Below are positions 56,464 through 64,000 of a stretch of DNA of 64,000 bases, one piece after another; position 1 is the first letter of the stretch; every line of letters begins with the position of its first letter. The notes below the pieces were generated by a model that worked only from the letters and a program-made list of their open reading frames with translations, was not told where the DNA came from and made no database searches. The position numbers and the translations under genes were made by a program. The stretch comes from an uncultured Flavobacteriaceae bacterium (GTDB taxonomy: Bacteria > Bacteroidota > Bacteroidia > Flavobacteriales > Flavobacteriaceae): the NCBI GenBank assembly GCA_943842625.1, contig CALTCK010000006.1:62001-126000 (forward strand). The letters are read 5' to 3'.

Positions 56464-57189
56464 TTAAGCTTGTTTTTTAACTGCTAAAGAATAAATAACT
56501 AAACCGAAACCAATTTTGTTGATTGCATCAGCAATGTTGTACCATACATTCATATCTAATCCATTGGTAGGAAGAACATCATACCATCCAGTGGTACCAG
56601 CCATATATCCTATTGGGTAAATAGCCCATCCTACAAGTACAAACCAACAAAGAATTTTGTGAGCATGTAATACATCACCACCAGCTTCTTTAGCAAGTTT
56701 TGCTGCTCCACCTAACCATATTTCGTAAACGATTACAAAATAAGCCAAACCAGAGACAGTACCCCACATAACTGCGTTGCCCATAGTTTCTCCAAAATAT
56801 CCAGTAACAAGCATTACAACAGATAAACCGATAAGCTTCCACATCATACTTTGTTTTGCTCCTGCAACTTTTAGTATAAGGTAAAATTCAACACACATTA
56901 ATGGAACTGTAAGAATCCAATCCACATATCTGAAAGCAGTAACGTTAGTTAAATCTCCAGCCATGGCTGCATCACGCATGTACCAGTAGTGTACTGCAGC
57001 GATAAAAGTAATTAAACCAGAAACTAAAACAGAAGTTCTCCATTTTTTGTCAAATTGATTTAATGAAAGAAAAAAGAAAGCAGAAGCTGCCATCATAGCC
57101 ATACATCCAATAAAGAATGTAAAGTTGACTGGATCGTTAACATCGCCACCAACAGCAACTAAATCAATCATAGTTAAAAGTGTTTTCAT
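56464..57189 (-). CDS. Proteorhodopsin, light-driven proton pump, green-type
   Basis: Encodes 241 residues with seven helices. The third helix reads FRYVDWILTVPLMCVEF. Asp90 matches the proton acceptor Asp97 of green proteorhodopsin, Thr94 matches Thr101, Glu101 the donor Glu108, and Met98 the spectral-tuning Leu105. That is a DTE pump with Met tuning, common in Flavobacteriia and green-absorbing. His67 (AAVHYWYMR) matches His75. The retinal Schiff-base Lys225 lies in AINKIGFGLVIY. It faces blh divergently across 113 bases, so the promoter region is shared. A strong terminator follows. Confidence 0.97.
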   Translation of the reverse strand: MKTLLTMIDLVAVGGDVNDPVNFTFFIGCMAMMAASAFFFLSLNQFDKKWRTSVLVSGLITFIAAVHYWYMRDAAMAGDLTNVTAFRYVDWILTVPLMCVEFYLILKVAGAKQSMMWKLIGLSVVMLVTGYFGETMGNAVMWGTVSGLAYFVIVYEIWLGGAAKLAKEAGGDVLHAHKILCWFVLVGWAIYPIGYMAGTTGWYDVLPTNGLDMNVWYNIADAINKIGFGLVIYSLAVKKQA

Positions 57190-57208
57190 AATATATTTGT
57201 TTTTAAAA

Positions 57209-57236
57209 GTTTAACAAACATAATAAATAATTAAAC
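57209..57236. promoter_or_regulatory. Proteorhodopsin promoter with inverted element shared with the photolyase operon
   Basis: On the minus strand TATGTTTG (57215-57222) exactly matches the TAnnTTTG -7 box, 25 bases before the proteorhodopsin ATG. It lies inside a 28-base element bounded by GTTTAAC (57209) and TTAAAC (ending 57236). The same bounded 28-base element, 23 of 28 positions identical, precedes the photolyase operon at 58225-58252. A shared regulator is possible. No ideal -33 TTG is visible. Confidence 0.5.
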
Positions 57237-57302
57237 AAGAAAAAATACTTTTATTATTATTTTGTTATTTTTTTAATATATTTATTATCAAATTACTAAA
57301 AA

Positions 57303-58181
57303 TTGAATTTAAAAACTGTTAAATTACTACTAACTTTCTTCTTTTTGTGGGTTACTACACAATTTGGGATTGACATTGAAAATTTACTTGCTTATATTTT
57401 TGTTTTGAGTCTTGGTATTCTTCATGGTTCTAACGATCTAAAACTTATTGGAAATTTTAGTGGTGAAAAAATATATACTTTTAGAACGAAACTTTCTATT
57501 TATGTTTTTGTAGTACTGTTTAGTTTTTGTTTTTTTCTAATTTTTCCAACTATAGGCTTTTTGCTCTTTATTTTATTTAGTGGTTATCATTTTGGCGAAC
57601 AACATCTGGCAGAAAAAATTAAATCAAAGCATTGGTCAAAATATTTTTTATACCTCATTTATGGTCTATTAGTATTTTTTTTAATATTTCAAACACACAG
57701 TAATGAGGTTATAGTAATTATATATGATATCACAAATATTACATTAAGTACTACTTTTTTTAGTTATTTTTTATTTATAACTTTCATAACTTTTATAAGT
57801 CTTCTAATATTCTACCTGGTTTACTCTAACTATAAAAATTCATTAATTCAATTATTTGAAGAAGTAGTTTATGTTTTTTTATTTTACATATTGTTTACTA
57901 ATTCAACTTTATTATGGTCTTTTGCTATTTATTTTATAGTATGGCATGCATTACCATCTCTCAATGATCAGATAATTAATATTTATGGTCAAACTAATTT
58001 AACCAATATTATCAAATACTTAAGAGTTTCTTTTTTGTACTGGGGCTTGTCAGTTATTGGTATTAGTATGCTTTCTTATTATACTGCTGATAACACTGCA
58101 TTATTTAATCTTCTTTTTGTTGCTCTATTAGCTTCCATTACTTTTCCTCATGCTATCGTTATTTTTAAAATGCAGCGATAA
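57303..58181 (+). CDS. blh: Beta-carotene 15,15'-dioxygenase, Brp/Blh family
   Basis: Encodes 292 residues from a TTG start (57303), with about eight membrane helices. It cleaves beta-carotene to two retinals, the proteorhodopsin chromophore. The conserved His residues expected to bind iron are in LGILHGSNDLK, SGYHFGEQHL, VWHALPSLND and FPHAIVIF. The divergent arrangement with proteorhodopsin is the usual functional pairing. No other carotenoid genes are in the window, so beta-carotene must come from genes elsewhere. The 5' leader is very short, so the start is less certain than the product. Confidence 0.93.
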   Translation: MNLKTVKLLLTFFFLWVTTQFGIDIENLLAYIFVLSLGILHGSNDLKLIGNFSGEKIYTFRTKLSIYVFVVLFSFCFFLIFPTIGFLLFILFSGYHFGEQHLAEKIKSKHWSKYFLYLIYGLLVFFLIFQTHSNEVIVIIYDITNITLSTTFFSYFLFITFITFISLLIFYLVYSNYKNSLIQLFEEVVYVFLFYILFTNSTLLWSFAIYFIVWHALPSLNDQIINIYGQTNLTNIIKYLRVSFLYWGLSVIGISMLSYYTADNTALFNLLFVALLASITFPHAIVIFKMQR

Positions 58182-58224
58182 AATGAGTGTATAATATCAA
58201 TTTCATAATTTTTACAAAGTCACT

Positions 58225-58252
58225 GTTTAACAAAATTGTTAAATAGTTAAAC
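58225..58252. promoter_or_regulatory. Inverted repeat over the promoter of the photolyase operon
   Basis: TTTAACAA (58226-58233), two As, then TTGTTAAA (58236-58243) form exact 8-base arms inside an outer GTTTAAC...GTTAAAC pair (58225-58231 and 58246-58252). The inner TTG at 58236-58238, followed after 20 bases by TATATTTA (58259-58266), makes a near-consensus promoter. The repeat therefore overlaps the -33 region, where a regulator would interfere with RNA polymerase. It closely resembles the element at the proteorhodopsin promoter. Confidence 0.5.
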
Positions 58253-58282
58253 GTTTTATATATTTACAAAAAAAATAATATT

Positions 58283-59386
58283 TTGAAAATTATAAACTTT
58301 CCATTACTTTTTTCGGAAGTTCAAAAACGTCTACTGCTCATAAATCCTGTAAAATATGCCAATACCAGAAATTATATTGATGGCTCAGTTTCTTATCTTT
58401 CTCCATATATCTCAAGAGGTATAATTTCAACTAAAGATGTATTTCAACAAGTCTTAAATTTGGGTTATTCGGTTAAACAATCAGAAAAGTTTATTCAAGA
58501 ACTTACTTGGAGAGATTATTGGCAACAGATTTGGATAGCCAAGGAAAATGAAATTAATTTCGATTTGAAAAACAAACAGCTAAAAGTATCCAACACTGCA
58601 ATCTCTAAATCTATTTTAGAAGCCAATACCGGTATAAAAGCTATAGACACTGCTATTTTTAATTTTTACAACAGTGGTTACTTACACAATCATCTTCGAA
58701 TGTATATCGCTTCATTAGCATGTAATGTAGCTCAAAGTCATTGGAGCTTTCCTGCAAAGTGGATGTATTATCATCTTTTAGATGCTGACTGGGCAAGTAA
58801 TGCTTTGAGTTGGCAATGGGTAGCAGGAACTAACTCCAATAAAAAATATATTGCAAATCAAGACAACATAAATAGGTATTGTCACACAAAACAAAGCAAT
58901 ACCTTTTTAGATATCTCTTATGACGATTTTGATACTTTACAAATACCAAAAGAACTCTTAGAGACGGATTCCTGTTTACTCAAAACACCCTTGCCTGAGA
59001 AAGAATTCGTCAAAATTGATAAGAAAAAACCTACTTATATTTATAATTTTTACAATTTAGATCCTCTTTGGGATCAAGAAATTCCTGCCAATAGAATACT
59101 TTTACTTGAACCCTCTCACTTTAATAAATATCCAATATCTCTAAACAGCATGAATTTTATGTTGGAATTTAGCAAAATCAATATTGATAACATTCAGCTA
59201 TACGTCGGTGAGTTTAATGAGTTTATTTTAGATCACGCTCCAAGCGAAGTTAATTACAAAGAACATCCACTTAGCTCACATTATACAGGAACTAAAATTC
59301 CAAGAGATTTTATTTTTGATGTTAAAGGATACTATCCAAGTTTTTTCTCCTTTTGGAAAAAATGTAAAAAAGAATTAATCTATTGA
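58283..59386 (+). CDS. Photolyase/cryptochrome-like FAD-domain protein, antenna-like domain at C-terminus
   Basis: Encodes 367 residues from a TTG start. No N-terminal photolyase alpha/beta domain is present. The FAD-binding helical domain begins almost at once: [42 protein letters not shown] and [20 protein letters not shown]. It continues with [17 protein letters not shown], where Asn173, Trp177 and Trp179 match E. coli Asn378, Trp382 and Trp384, and Trp154 matches Trp359. Residues 250-345 then form an alpha/beta-like region ([20 protein letters not shown]), reminiscent of the missing domain. First gene of the operon, overlapping the next by 4 bases. Activity (repair or signalling) is unknown. 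Confidence 0.85.
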
Positions 59387-60840
59387 TAAAAAAAGATATT
59401 AATATAGTTTGGTTAAAGCGTGACCTTCGATTTCAAGATCACGAACCTTTATTTCTTGCCGAAAAATCGGGCCAGCCTTATTTTATCATATATATTTTTG
59501 AGCCAAGCTTGATCAATCATTTTGATACTAGCAACAGACATTTACAATTTATTTACCATTCGATTCAAGTACTCGATATGGAGCTAATAAAATACAATCG
59601 GAATGTTGATGTATTTTATGCAGAGGCTTTAGATGTATTTCTTTTTTTTAATCAACATTATACAATTAAAAATATCTTTAGTTATCGTGAAAGTGGTATA
59701 GCTAAAACATGGCTTCGAGATCAACGTATTGAATTATTTTCTAAAAAAAACGATATTTTGTGGGCTCAGTTTCAGAGAGATGGTATTCTAAGGGGGATAA
59801 AAAACAGAGTAGATTGGAACAAGAAATGGTTTGCAACTATGAACGAACCTCAGATATTAAATACCTACTCTTGTACAACACTTAAAAAAATAACTCATCC
59901 CTTTTTGTTACCTGAAGAATTTAAAAAAACACTTAAAAAATATCCAAAACAATTTCAACCTGCCGGAACTCTTAATGCTTGGAAATATTTAAACACTTTT
60001 ACTCAACTTAGAGGTTTTAATTATCATAAACATATATCGAAACCTCACGAGAGTAGATCGAGTTGCAGTAGGCTATCTCCTTTTTTAGCTTGGGGAAATT
60101 TGAGTATAAAACAAGTCTTTCAATTTGTTGGTAAACATCCAAATCGACAAAACAATAAAAGAGCTTTTAATGGAATGTTAACTCGATTAAAGTGGCATTG
60201 TCATTTCATTCAAAAATTTGAAGTAGAATGTACCTATGAGACTCATTGTGTTAACAAAGGCTATGAGTTTTTACTCCATGAAAAAAATCAACACTATATC
60301 GAAGCATGGAAACTTGGTAAAACTGGGTACCCTCTTATTGACGCTTGTATGCGTGCACTTATTCAAACGGGTTGGATTAATTTTAGAATGCGTGCTATGT
60401 TAGTTTCATTTTTTACAATGAATTTAGACCAAGATTGGCGTGATGGTGTTTATCATCTTGCAAATCTTTTTTTAGATTACGAGCCAGGAATTCATTATCC
60501 TCAATTTCAGATGCAAGCCGCAACAACCGGAATAAACACTATTCGTTTATACAACCCAGTTAAAAATTCATATGAACATGACCCAAAAGGTTTGTTTATA
60601 AAAAAATGGGTTCCTGAATTAGCCGAAATTCCTACTTCACACATCCATGAGCCATGGAATATGACAGAGATGGAACAACTATTTTATGATGTGGTTATTG
60701 GCACTCATTATCCCAAGCCTATTGTAGATTTAAAGATAAGTGCCAAAACTGCACGCTCGAAAATATGGAATCATAAAAAACACCCAATAGTACTTAAAGA
60801 GAAGAATCGTATAATTAAAACACATGTAAATAATCGTTAA
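59383..60840 (+). CDS. Cryptochrome/photolyase family protein with altered FAD site
   Basis: Encodes 485 residues from a TTG start overlapping the previous stop. It has the normal order: an N-terminal alpha/beta antenna domain ([20 protein letters not shown]) and a C-terminal FAD domain ([59 protein letters not shown]). In an ungapped alignment with E. coli photolyase, the Asn378 position is His371, Trp382 is Phe375 and Trp384 is Met377, while Trp359 (Trp352) is kept. The canonical electron-transfer chain is therefore broken next to the flavin. CPD repair activity is uncertain, and a cryptochrome-like or other function is possible. Confidence 0.88.
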
Positions 60841-60841
60841 T

Positions 60842-61468
60842 ATGAGATATACTAATAAACAAATACAAGAATTAGATCGTGTGTCGAGATTAAAAATAAT
60901 TAATTCAATCACTGGAATTAAACCGGCAAATTTAGTTGGTACTATTGACGATGAAGGTAAAACAAATTTGGCTATTTTTAGTTCTGTTGTACACTTAGGA
61001 AGTAATCCTCCGCTATTGGGATTTATATCAAGACCCAGAAGGTTAAAGTTTGGACATACGTATACCAACATCCAAAAGACTGGACAGTATACCATAAATC
61101 ATATTCATCCTGAATTTATAAAAAAGGCACATTATACCTCTGCTAAATTTGATTCCGAAATATCAGAATTTGAACGTTGCAAACTAACTGAGGAATATCA
61201 AGCAAATTTTAAAGCTCCCTTTGTTAAAGAAAGTAATTTAAAAATAGGAATGTGTTTCAAAGAATCCTTAGATATAAAAAATAATGGTACTATTATGGTT
61301 ATTGGTGAAGTAGAACAACTAATCATCCCAGAAAATGCTATTGTCAATAATGACATTGATTTAGAGCTGACAAACAGTGTAGGCATTTCAGGATTGAACA
61401 GTTACTATACCTTAAAAAAAATTGAAACACATCCATATGCACGAGTAGAACAAGTACCAAAATTTTAA
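60842..61468 (+). CDS. Flavin reductase family protein (FMN-binding split barrel)
   Basis: Encodes 208 residues. The split-barrel flavin domain shows [54 protein letters not shown] and [12 protein letters not shown]. Such proteins use NAD(P)H to reduce FMN, or bind flavin as small oxidoreductases. It is one base after the preceding photolyase-like gene and two bases before a DUF2256 gene, within an operon of three flavoproteins. A role in supplying or reducing flavin for them is a reasonable inference but untested. Confidence 0.87.
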
Positions 61469-61470
61469 AA

Positions 61471-61599
61471 ATGAATAAAAAAAATCTTCCTCAGAAAATT
61501 TGTCTAGTATGTGATCGCCCTTTTAGTTGGCGAAAAAAATGGAAAAAAGACTGGGAAGAAGTAAAATATTGTAGCGAACGCTGCAGAAAAAACAAATGA
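61471..61599 (+). CDS. DUF2256 family mini-protein (zinc-finger-like)
   Basis: Encodes 42 residues: [20 protein letters not shown], a Lys/Trp-rich middle ([14 protein letters not shown]), then SERCRKNK. The spacing CxxC...CxxxC fits a small zinc-binding knuckle of the DUF2256 family, which is often found next to photolyase-related genes, though no function is established. It overlaps the next gene by 4 bases (ATGA), implying translational coupling. Confidence 0.88.
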
Positions 61600-63083
61600 A
61601 AAGTATAAACGTAGTATTTCCTCATCAATTATTTCAAAATTCTCCAATTTTTGAAAATAAAGCGCCAATTTATTTGGTTGAAGAATATTTATTTTTCAGG
61701 CACTACAAGTTTCATAAACAAAAAATTGCTTTTCATCGAGCAACAATGAAATGGTATGCAGATTATGTTACAAAAGAAAAAAATATAGCGGTAATGTATA
61801 TTGAATCTACTGAAAAAATAGCCGATATTCGTTTTCTTATTCCAGAATTAAAACGCAATGGGTATACCCATATTAACTATATTGATCCCACAGACAATTG
61901 GTTGCAAAAAAGGTTGAATAAAGGGTTAAAAGAAGAAGGGTTTACTTATAAACAATATACTTCTCCTTTATTTTTAAACTCAAAAGACGATCTGACTTCT
62001 TTTTTTAGATTGGACAAAAAAAAGTACCATCAGACTTCTTTTTATATTGAACAAAGAAAAAACACTCGAATTCTTCTCGAAACAGACGGAAAACCCGAAG
62101 GAGGTTCTTGGACTTACGATACCCAGAACAGAAAAAAATATCCAAAAACAAAAACACCTCCTCCAATTATTTTTCCTGATACCGATCCCTTCTATGAAGA
62201 AGCTAAAACCTATGTTGCTAAAAATTTCTCAGATCATTTAGGAAATCTTACTGATACGCCACTTTACCCAATTAATTTTGATTTGACGAATAAGTGGCTT
62301 CATCAATTTTTTGAGTACCGATTTATGGATTTTGGTATTTATGAAGACGCAATTGTAGCTGAAAACTCTATATTAAACCATAGTGTTTTAACCCCCATGT
62401 TAAATGTTGGTTTAATTAGTCCAAAAAAAATCATTGAAGAATGCCTTTTATTCGCAGAGCAAAACGATATTCCCATTAATTCAACAGAAGGATTTGTTCG
62501 ACAGATTATTGGATGGCGAGAATTTGTTAGAGGTATTTACGAAGCTCGTGGAGTTGATGCACGAACCACTAATTTCTGGAACTTTAAAAAGAAGATACCA
62601 CAATCATTTTATGATGGCACCACAGGTATTCCTCCTATAGACCTTACCATTAAAAAGTTGTTAGAAACAGGCTATTGCCATCATATTGAACGTTTGATGG
62701 TACTCGGTAACTTCATGTTATTATGTGAGTTTGATCCAGATGAGGTTTATCGTTGGTTTATGGAATTATCTATTGACAGCTATGATTGGGTCATGGTAAC
62801 AAATGTATACAGTATGAGTCAATTTGCTGATGGAGGATTGTTAGCCTCAAAACCTTATATAAGCGGTAGTAATTATTTAATGAAAATGAGTAATTATAAA
62901 AAAGGAGAGTGGCAATCTGTTTGGGATGGCTTATTTTGGCGTTTTATGAATGTCCATCGAGATTTCTTTTTATCAAATCCTCGTTTAGGAATGCTGGTAA
63001 GAATGTTCGATAAAATGCCTCAAGAAAAACAACATCAGCATCTCTCAAATGGAGAGTTATTTCTAGAAAATTTAAAAAATTAA
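61596..63083 (+). CDS. Photolyase-related protein of the (6-4)/DPRP family, lacking Fe-S cysteines
   Basis: Encodes 495 residues. The N-terminal DPRP alpha/beta domain ([34 protein letters not shown]) is followed by the helical FAD domain ([58 protein letters not shown]). Agrobacterium PhrB and CryB-type members bind a 4Fe-4S cluster through four Cys. Here the only Cys are 283, 361 and 377, and the region matching the CxxC...C block reads [18 protein letters not shown]. No cluster is expected. It may be a (6-4) repair enzyme or a photoreceptor. Fifth gene of the operon. Confidence 0.88.
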
Positions 63084-63085
63084 TA

Positions 63086-63511
63086 ATGCTTTTTAATACG
63101 ACCTACAAAAATAAAGACTACTCAAAAGAAAGTGCCCTTTCAGTCGGACCTCCTTTTTCATTTTTAAAAAAAATTAAAATGCGAGGTGTTGGTTCGAGTC
63201 GATTAATTATAGAAGAATTAAGTACACAATTAAAACCCAAAAATCTTCACCCCAATTCAATCAGTTATGCTAATATTGAGTTACGAGATAAGGGAATCAT
63301 TATTCATTTTGGTAATAAATTAGACCGTTATTCATGGATTGTACCTTATTACCGTCTTGTCACTTATAGTAATAAAAGATTTAGCATACATTCAAATGGT
63401 CATTTTATAAAGTTTAAGAAAAATAGAAATTATCGAAATAACAAAAAATTCTTAGCCAAGATGATAGATATGAAAATAAATCATCTAAAATTAGATTATT
63501 ATGATGTTTAA
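63086..63511 (+). CDS. Unknown 141-residue protein, last gene of the photolyase operon
   Basis: Starts 2 bases after the preceding stop. The sequence is basic with no signal peptide or membrane helix. It opens MLFNTTYKNKDYSKESALSV, has a central beta-like stretch (IELRDKGIIIHFGNKLDRYS) and a Lys/Arg/Asn-rich end (KFKKNRNYRNNKKFLAKMID). I recognise no family. The basic tail could contact nucleic acid, but this is speculation. Tight coupling to the photolyase genes suggests a shared process. Confidence 0.75.
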   Translation: MLFNTTYKNKDYSKESALSVGPPFSFLKKIKMRGVGSSRLIIEELSTQLKPKNLHPNSISYANIELRDKGIIIHFGNKLDRYSWIVPYYRLVTYSNKRFSIHSNGHFIKFKKNRNYRNNKKFLAKMIDMKINHLKLDYYDV

Positions 63512-63527
63512 AACCCGAACGTCACCA

Positions 63528-64000
63528 TTACATTTGTGAATCGATAAAAGAAATAGTTTCTTGTTCTAATGCAATAGTTTTTTTATAAATAGTGGCAGCT
63601 TTATTTAAAATCACAGTTGCAAAATCCCTGTCTTTAATGTCTTTAGCATTAATTCGAACATTAAAGTAAGCTCCAATTACAGCTGCTCTGGCACAAAGTA
63701 CTCCAACTCCTGCATCGGATAGTGAATTTTTTAAACCATCCTTTAGCATAGCTTGCATAATCTCCATTGATTGAAAGGAGGTCTCCATTACTTTAAATGG
63801 AATTTCGGTTGCATATTTGGTAGCATTTTCTATGGCGTCTAGCCTTATTTTCTTTTCTAAATCAGTATCCTTAGGCATTCTAAAACCATCAATAATTTTA
63901 TTAAAAGCATTGGTGTCTTCATCAACTAAAAATAAAAGCTGCTCTTTATATTCCTGACCTTTTATAGCCCAATCTGAGAAAAATTCCCAGCGTTCATCCC
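63528..64000 (-). pseudogene. Formimidotetrahydrofolate cyclodeaminase-like protein, C-terminal part, frame break, cut by window end
   Basis: The visible part matches the FTCD cyclodeaminase C-terminus: LLFLVDEDTNAFNKIIDGFR, EIPFKVMETSFQSMEIMQAM, and SLSDAGVGVLCARAAVIGAY. It releases ammonia from formimino-THF in histidine degradation, but the 5' half lies outside the window. Reading back, a TAA appears at 63963-63965. With one base fewer in the five-T run at 63960-63964, the frame continues as WEFFSDWAIKGQEYKEQ, as expected for the family. A homopolymer error is the simplest explanation. Confidence 0.82.

Follow-up and report, generated by a model that had tools for sequence, protein, structure and literature searches.

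The 64,000-nucleotide stretch analyzed here (the window), positions 62,001 to 126,000 of contig CALTCK010000006.1 from an uncultured Flavobacteriaceae bacterium (GCA_943842625.1), carries on its + strand, at 58283-63511, an operon with three genes of the cryptochrome/photolyase family; this operon and a predicted operator upstream of it are our subject. The operon comprises six genes, here g1 to g6, whose junctions are 4-base overlaps or gaps of 1-2 bases. The first, g1 (58283-59386, +, 367 amino acids from a TTG start), is NewPHL/short photolyase-like, with its flavin adenine dinucleotide (FAD) domain N-terminal and an alpha/beta part C-terminal, and overlaps by 4 bases (59383-59386) with g2 (59383-60840, +, 485 amino acids), a full-length cryptochrome/photolyase. 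After a 1-base gap comes the flavin-reductase-like g3 (60842-61468, +, 208 amino acids) and after a further 2 bases g4 (61471-61599, +, 42 amino acids; DUF2256), which is shorter than the 50-amino-acid cut-off for open reading frames (ORFs), its start being read separately and checked with Pfam. A 4-base overlap (61596-61599) joins g4 to g5 (61596-63083, +, 495 amino acids), of the prokaryotic (6-4)-photolyase type, and 2 bases separate g5 from g6 (63086-63511, +, 141 amino acids), a conserved protein without a Pfam family. Next to the operon lie proteorhodopsin (56464-57189, -, 241 amino acids; Bac_rhodopsin, 129.8 bits) and, divergent from it, blh (57303-58181, +), a beta-carotene 15,15'-dioxygenase gene for retinal synthesis with PF15461 and TIGR03753 over cut-off. 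A preliminary description of this DNA had reported six tightly packed genes beside proteorhodopsin-blh, including a flavin reductase, a DUF2256 protein and an unknown protein, and the ORF coordinates, strands and Pfam results (Flavin_Reduct, DUF2256, nothing for g6) bear this out.

We found that the three flavoproteins differ in architecture. Pfam detects FAD_binding_7 alone in g1 (residues 70-190, 72.9 bits), with no PF00875. The AlphaFold model of g1 (mean predicted local distance difference test score, pLDDT, 94.3, from an alignment of 38 sequences) aligns over residues 2-228, the only part that the structure matches cover, to the C-terminal FAD domains of 1dnp (Z 17.2), 7ykn (Z 17.2) and 1np7 (Z 16.6) at root-mean-square deviations of 2.7-2.9, and has strands at 251-339 in its C-terminal alpha/beta part. 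Judged from the model, g1 is a protein of the inverted NewPHL/SPL topology, in which the catalytic FAD domain is N-terminal, the other domain is C-terminal, and there is no N-terminal antenna domain. NewPHL/SPL are the short photolyase-like proteins reportedly treated by Emmerich et al. in 2020. The likeness of g1 to NewPHL/SPL proteins, of which members from Dinoroseobacter and Methylobacterium are characterized, is drawn from architecture, and g1 differs in sharing its operon with two further photolyase-family genes. Parts of two papers describe NewPHL/SPL proteins as repairing cyclobutane pyrimidine dimers (CPDs) in single-stranded DNA (PMC13274461; Phr7 in PMC9426592), and by analogy CPDs in single-stranded DNA would be the expected substrate of g1.

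Among 60 genomes, full-length NewPHL was present in 6, DASH cryptochrome (E below 1e-140) in 15 and both in none, an absence of overlap with a chance probability of 0.16, and DASH was the best match in 0 of 80 NewPHL neighborhoods (the best 80 of at least 519 loci); a replacement of DASH by NewPHL across genomes is suggestive only. A dihydrofolate-reductase/RibD-like gene, identified by eye, stands immediately upstream of NewPHL in one genus (L037:7945-8505), possibly a folate-antenna link.

The g5 protein combines a DPRP domain (PF04244, 176.4 bits) with FAD_binding_7, and its best solved relative is the prokaryotic (6-4) photolyase 7ykn (E 8.8e-75). The four cysteines of the iron-sulfur (Fe-S) cluster are all missing from g5 and from its 58 usable relatives (of 59 loci), and all four are present in homologs from other flavobacteria (L040, L041, L042). 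The label FeS-BCP was rejected for g5 since it lacks all four [4Fe-4S] cysteines. An Fe-S-less subgroup of prokaryotic (6-4) photolyases has already been described, in section 13 of PMC9178010 and in part of PMC12082625, and g5 resembles this subgroup (M/PromaPL/Phr2; portions of PMC9178010 and PMC9426592) in its PF04244 and FAD domains, its (6-4) relatives and the absent cysteines, a match made by domains, relatives and cysteine loss. To judge from sequence, g5 is a prokaryotic (6-4)-photolyase-type protein of the Fe-S-less kind.

Pfam assigns DNA_photolyase and FAD_binding_7 to g2. Its identification as a DASH cryptochrome was rejected, as TIGR02765 gave it 119.3 bits where 317.05 are required, and a flavobacterial DASH control scored 498.7. 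A PF03441 search of the source genome (1.94 Mb, 17 contigs, 83.8% complete) returned four proteins, g1, g2, g5 and a 424-amino-acid photolyase on another contig, which we call class I-like because class I models fit it best (347.5 and 319.8 bits) and yet remain below their cut-offs. Against other curated NCBIfam subfamilies (class I CPD photolyase/plant cryptochrome), g2 reached 155.5 (cut-off 506), 106.2 (884.6) and 151.5 (603.85) bits; because the class I-like controls from the source genome and L041 also miss the class I cut-offs (347.5 and 360.6 of 884.6; 319.8 and 322.7 of 506), these cut-offs are informative for g2 only in the DASH test. We compared g2 and 47 relatives at the tryptophans that we take to form the electron-transfer triad and the active-site pair. 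The proximal triad position holds Phe in 46 of the 48 sequences and Leu in 2, the middle and distal Trp are retained in 48/48, and the second Trp of NWQW is Met in 48/48, the reference being the class I-like photolyase of the same genome, where NWQW has both. The intact triad plus active-site Trp pair of a class I CPD photolyase is therefore not found in g2. Because of the Phe or Leu at the proximal position, photoreduction of g2 may need help, which the flavin reductase next door could give; as a bolder step, g3 may chemically reduce the FAD of g2.

Such changes invite the alternative that g2 and g5 are signaling cryptochromes that no longer repair DNA, so that only g1 and the class I-like enzyme from the other contig would do so. 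For this speak the Phe/Leu and Met in place of two NWQW Trp in g2 and its weak scores on all NCBIfam subfamilies, and, should g2 be Phr1-like as we infer, the inclusion of a Vibrio cholerae cryptochrome among Phr1-like proteins in the part of PMC9426592 that covers them. According to the same portion of that paper, however, marine Synechococcus survived UV-B about 1000-fold less well once phr2 (the Fe-S-less PromaPL type) was disrupted, which favors a repair role for g5-type proteins, and we regard the signaling alternative as unlikely. High-light Prochlorococcus carries phr1, phr2 (Fe-S-less), phr3 and phr7 (NewPHL), as set out in part of PMC9426592; if g2 is Phr1-like, the genome studied here would hold the same kit.

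Of the three remaining products, g3 matches PF01613 (Flavin_Reduct, 61.1 bits) and g4 matches PF10013 (DUF2256, 80.2 bits) and has two Cys pairs, so that it may be zinc-ribbon-like; both are possible helpers of the flavoproteins. A search of open-licence literature found no paper that treats DUF2256 together with a photolyase. Pfam gave no family for g6, which shares 42-43% identity with the protein next to g2 in three further flavobacteria. The arrangement of its model (pLDDT 87.8) is PH-like, but the matches are weak: Foldseek returned nothing at E<=0.001, and PH, DH-PH and EVH1 proteins stood at Z 6.8-8.8 among the matches listed by VIA. The PH-like resemblance may be no more than a common arrangement.

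The preliminary description had held that these were three flavoproteins of differing architecture and not three redundant photolyases. Pfam domains, the g1 model and the residue comparisons agree, and we rejected redundancy because the three have their domains in different orders, unlike N-terminal domains and distinct residues at cofactor or electron-chain positions.

Searching GTDB genomes with the g1 alignment returned at least 519 NewPHL loci, of which the best 80 were used; most of these are from Flavobacteriia, while some belong elsewhere in Bacteroidota and a few to different groups. Same-strand runs around g1, allowing gaps of up to 400 bases and including some short contigs, contained g5 in 59, DUF2256 in 57, a TIGR03643 gene in 49, g2 in 44, flavin reductase in 32, a 137-amino-acid protein in 24 and g6 in 18 (the label "137aa", like crtZ and SRPBCC, was assigned by eye, and Pfam gave nothing for crtZ and SRPBCC). 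Dispersal of the genes in relatives, named beforehand as grounds against a joint function, is thus not what the survey found (g5 59/80, DUF2256 57/80, g2 44/80, flavin reductase 32/80). The same gene order is repeated in two loci (L186, L188) at 85-100% identity and partial forms occur in most of the 80, which is more than chance would give, and a DASH-type version of the cluster is kept in four other flavobacteria (L040-L043). Since same-strand neighbors recur yet many runs miss members, the combination is conserved but modular. Proteorhodopsin and blh lie within about 10 kb of g1 in 2 of the 80 loci, again L186 and L188, both with the window layout.

It had also been suggested that the six products act jointly, possibly as a multi-component system for light sensing or DNA repair; in its strong form they would make up a single complex in which the flavoproteins are the sensors. 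The recurrent co-clustering bears the suggestion out in part. The Pfam scan of the products gave no sensory output domain, which speaks against the strong form. The 4-base overlaps at 59383 and 61596, the keeping of the cluster across genera, and the Phe (46) or Leu (2) in 48/48 g2 sequences, on account of which photoreduction may need the neighboring flavin reductase, would all suit a complex. Translational coupling fits co-expression, although it is no proof of a joint mechanism. Against a complex, of the 80 runs (some on short contigs) 36 lack g2, 48 lack g3, 23 lack g4 and 62 lack g6, and 5 have no other reference gene besides g1; moreover, the relatives of g1 and g5 described in the parts of the literature cited above are repair enzymes. 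We consider one six-product complex very improbable.

Upstream of g1 and of the clusters of its relatives we found GTTTAAC and GTTAAAC, 21 bases apart, which we extend to a predicted palindromic operator, TGTTTAAC-N14-GTTAAACA. In the photolyase operons a site at gap 14 was present in 39/75, compared with 0-1/75 at each of the twelve remaining gaps in the range 8 to 20; in L186 and L188 the run began with blh, which means that the site scored there is not the one between blh and g1. The two best matches in the window are at the operon promoter (58224-58253, +, 1 mismatch), with a candidate -7 box, TATATTTA, at 58259-58266 (+), and at the proteorhodopsin promoter (57208-57237, -, 2 mismatches to TGTTTAAC-N14-GTTAAACA), where a TAnnTTTG-like -7 box, TATGTTTG, lies inside the operator at 57222-57215 (-). 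With this operator at its promoter, proteorhodopsin is a predicted member of the regulon.

Proteorhodopsin is present in 71 of 299 genomes of the family, and 68 of its promoters were scored, 30 from the closest proteorhodopsins and 38 of 40 others fetched (a 62-residue fragment was left out; G104, a gene fragment matching the query from residue 120 whose upstream stretch is probably no promoter, is counted as a miss among the 68). At gap 14, sites with <=2 mismatches occurred in 22/30 and 9/38 (31/68) and with <=3 mismatches in 26/30 and 15/38 (41/68); the higher rate in the first 30 is perhaps due to their being the closest proteorhodopsins. At <=2 mismatches other gaps gave 0-1/30 (gaps 6-13 and 15-23) and 0/38 (gaps 10-13 and 15-18), and a Markov null predicts 0.09% per promoter at <=2 mismatches and 1.1% at <=3. 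In 27/41 photolyase loci the sequence TAnnTTTR stands 35 bases from the operator start, and in 21/41 proteorhodopsin promoters it falls within the operator, at offset 14; on sequence grounds both positions fit repression.

The source genome has 8 sites at <=2 mismatches, compared with 2 for a backwards control. Besides those before g1-g6 and before proteorhodopsin, they lie between a MerR gene and crtI-crtB-lycopene cyclase; before a TetR-ABC1-FolE-GPX-TspO operon (a perfect site); at the start of a CIA30-SDR-photolyase-SDR run (SDR, short-chain dehydrogenase/reductase) that holds the class I-like photolyase; in the gap that separates a methyltransferase-amine oxidase pair (+) from a run whose end is TIGR03643 (-); upstream of a fasciclin gene that is divergent from mnmA (L053:4979-5008, 0 mismatches); and, weakly, before a Porph_ging-family gene (2 mismatches). 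Across sixty genomes from sixty genera, 120 sites (<=1 mismatch) were found compared with 19 control sites. When one best site was examined in each of 29 of the 38 genomes with a site, 23 adjoined orthologs of the regulon of the source genome, 10 of the 29 lying beside a MerR-crtI pair; 2 others had only a FolE-like gene nearby and 4 had nothing (G016 and G030, without MerR; G050 and G011, with MerR).

The MerR gene of the source genome (L055:3790-4728) is on a different contig, immediately upstream of the carotenoid (crt) operon. Its product has both the MerR helix-turn-helix (MerR_1, 42.1 bits) and the B12-binding cap (B12-binding_2, PF02607, 27.8 bits) over cut-off, the combination that marks CarH/LitR proteins, and contains GxxW, EH and GxxH, given in a section of PMC11796333 as motifs of the light response to AdoCbl in B12 photoreceptors, the His of GxxH being the cobalt ligand. 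Among 30 orthologs, GxxW-x9-E is present in 30, with EH in 29 and ExH in 30. A close MerR ortholog occurred in 39 of the 60 genomes, and a site (<=1 mismatch) was present in 35/39 of these versus 3/21 with a distant one or none (Fisher 8e-9). In other proteorhodopsin genomes a MerR match (E<=1e-10) was found in 56 of 69 searched (of 70), and the proteorhodopsin site followed it, at <=3 mismatches in 38/55 with MerR versus 3/13 without (p 0.004) and at <=2 mismatches in 29/55 versus 2/13 (p 0.03); of the three MerR-less proteorhodopsin genomes with a site, two are only 73% and 81% complete. Phylum-wide, MerR at E<=1e-40 is present in 56/296 genomes. A distant MerR subtype (34-41% identity; G007, G014, G025, G028, G032, G038, G040) comes without the operator except in G025, suggesting another DNA specificity.

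The perfect site ahead of a TetR gene raises a different explanation, in which the operon is an ordinary UV-repair cluster, the palindrome serves TetR or a general stress or nutrient regulator, and light has no direct part. Repair, GPX and FolE would also suit oxidative stress, and the sites at the fasciclin gene (0 mismatches) and, weakly, the Porph_ging-family gene (2 mismatches) would be at home in such a scheme. The sites, however, track MerR: in genomes with TetR they occur in 29/32 with a close MerR versus 1/6 without, and in genomes lacking TetR in 6/7 versus 2/15. With MerR status fixed TetR does not predict sites, and TetR is disfavored as the operator binder. The position of 10/29 best sites beside a MerR-crtI pair and the presence of proteorhodopsin and carotenoid genes among the targets likewise argue against this explanation, which we hold to be quite unlikely.

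Light regulons of the LitR/CarH type are also known from Thermus and Myxococcus. The system proposed here resembles them, and specifically the PplR/PmlR regulons of Pseudomonas as presented in part of PMC9758184, in its MerR plus B12-cap regulator, here beside carotenoid genes, in its targets (photolyases, SDR, FolE and cryptochrome) and in a palindrome near core promoters. It differs in having proteorhodopsin and a three-flavoprotein operon among its predicted targets. The LitR regulons of Pseudomonas take in phrB, cryB and folE as well as SDR genes, with PmlR2 acting as a repressor (same part of PMC9758184), so a regulon of this kind is already known. Because the enzymes of the operon are each of known kind as well, what is new is their regulation and their recurrent combination.

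Several results count against placing the operon in such a regulon. We first derived the motif from this window together with its relatives, and the number of matches in the window is not above chance (3 at <=3 mismatches versus 1.36 expected, with 16 of 100 shuffles reaching 3). No site within 3 mismatches was found in 27/68 proteorhodopsin promoters, and none (<=2 mismatches, within 1.2 kb of g1) in 38/79 photolyase loci, some of them on contigs that are short upstream; all three Dyadobacter photolyase loci lack one. Five small proteorhodopsin genomes carry a variant that the motif misses, and further site-less proteorhodopsin promoters show nothing. Among the 39 genomes that have a close MerR, four lack a site, and the p values of the 2x2 tests are optimistic because the genomes are related. 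As for the regulator, the Rossmann B12 domain (PF02310) is absent from the Pfam matches of MerR at E<=0.01, though an ExHxxG motif is present; class II LitR proteins that keep the cap alone are thought unable to bind B12, according to a section of PMC9758184; and the G of the published GxxH is found in 2/30 orthologs. The known LitR operator, TGTACA-N12-TGTACA in the part of PMC9758184 that gives it, is unlike TGTTTAAC-N14-GTTAAACA. Because the genome is only 84% complete, another regulator could be missing from it.

Taken with these reservations, the gene content and architectures, the conserved clustering, the shared operator of fixed spacing near promoter boxes and the co-occurrence with MerR make it probable, in our view, that g1-g6 form a photorepair operon within a CarH/LitR-type light regulon to which proteorhodopsin also belongs. 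The likeliest light sensor would be the MerR/B12 protein on the other contig. In the dark, this MerR-family protein with most of a B12-photoreceptor signature would bind TGTTTAAC-N14-GTTAAACA and repress the photolyase operon, proteorhodopsin, the carotenoid genes, the class I-like photolyase operon and the TetR-ABC1-FolE-GPX-TspO operon; we predict repression because, at the operon and at proteorhodopsin, the site overlaps or adjoins the core promoter, and because it precedes the other target genes. Light would break the Co-C bond of B12 and free the repressor from DNA, and its release would be the common start signal for energy capture, pigments and DNA repair. The operon would then provide a NewPHL, an Fe-S-less (6-4)-photolyase-type enzyme and the cryptochrome/photolyase g2, with the flavin reductase and DUF2256 as possible helpers. 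The fullest form of this proposal, in which a B12-based CarH/LitR sensor, acting through one palindrome of fixed spacing, switches proteorhodopsin, carotenoids and the photorepair kit as one sunlight program and g3 may reduce g2, is one that we lean towards, though only slightly.

A photolyase gene-proximity cluster enriched in proteorhodopsin-bearing marine Flavobacteriia was reported by Kumagai et al. 2018 (PMC5932025). The taxon and the association of a photolyase cluster with proteorhodopsin are the same as here; the portion of that paper drawn on reports co-occurrence, without an operator or regulator, whereas we describe an operator and a candidate regulator. Photolyase clusters and proteorhodopsin may thus co-occur in marine Flavobacteriia as targets of one switch. 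Our search of open-licence literature found no report of proteorhodopsin under a CarH/LitR-type regulator or of this operator, and no named regulator of a flavobacterial proteorhodopsin gene. If the proposed regulon is real, these bacteria would rely on vitamin B12 as the light sensor behind their capture of light energy, and the operator would be a tool to find the whole sunlight response in uncultured genomes. Effects of light on proteorhodopsin bacteria have already been measured, and the operator and candidate B12 sensor can be tested directly in cultured relatives.

Some further observations concern the operator and its neighborhoods. In L163, L164 and L170-L172 a variant palindrome, AGTTTAAT or AGTTTAAA followed by CCTAAACA or TCTAAACA, lies near -52 upstream of proteorhodopsin and is perhaps a co-evolved operator. 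In the proteorhodopsin promoters of L065, L084 and L086 the first operator is soon followed by an extra TTGTTTAAT-like half-site, which may make for a tandem site. A near-perfect operator occurs at a fasciclin-domain gene in several genera (L053, L088, L100, L104), with mnmA/trmU adjacent in three of these four. On contig C9 of the source genome (L052:6957-7656), folE consists of two overlapping ORFs (85 and 150 amino acids), a frameshift or an assembly error, and at that place L041 and L043 have a single ORF of 246 and 230 amino acids, respectively. At the end of the window, a formiminotransferase-cyclodeaminase-like gene (63528-63998, -), named by eye, converges on the operon.

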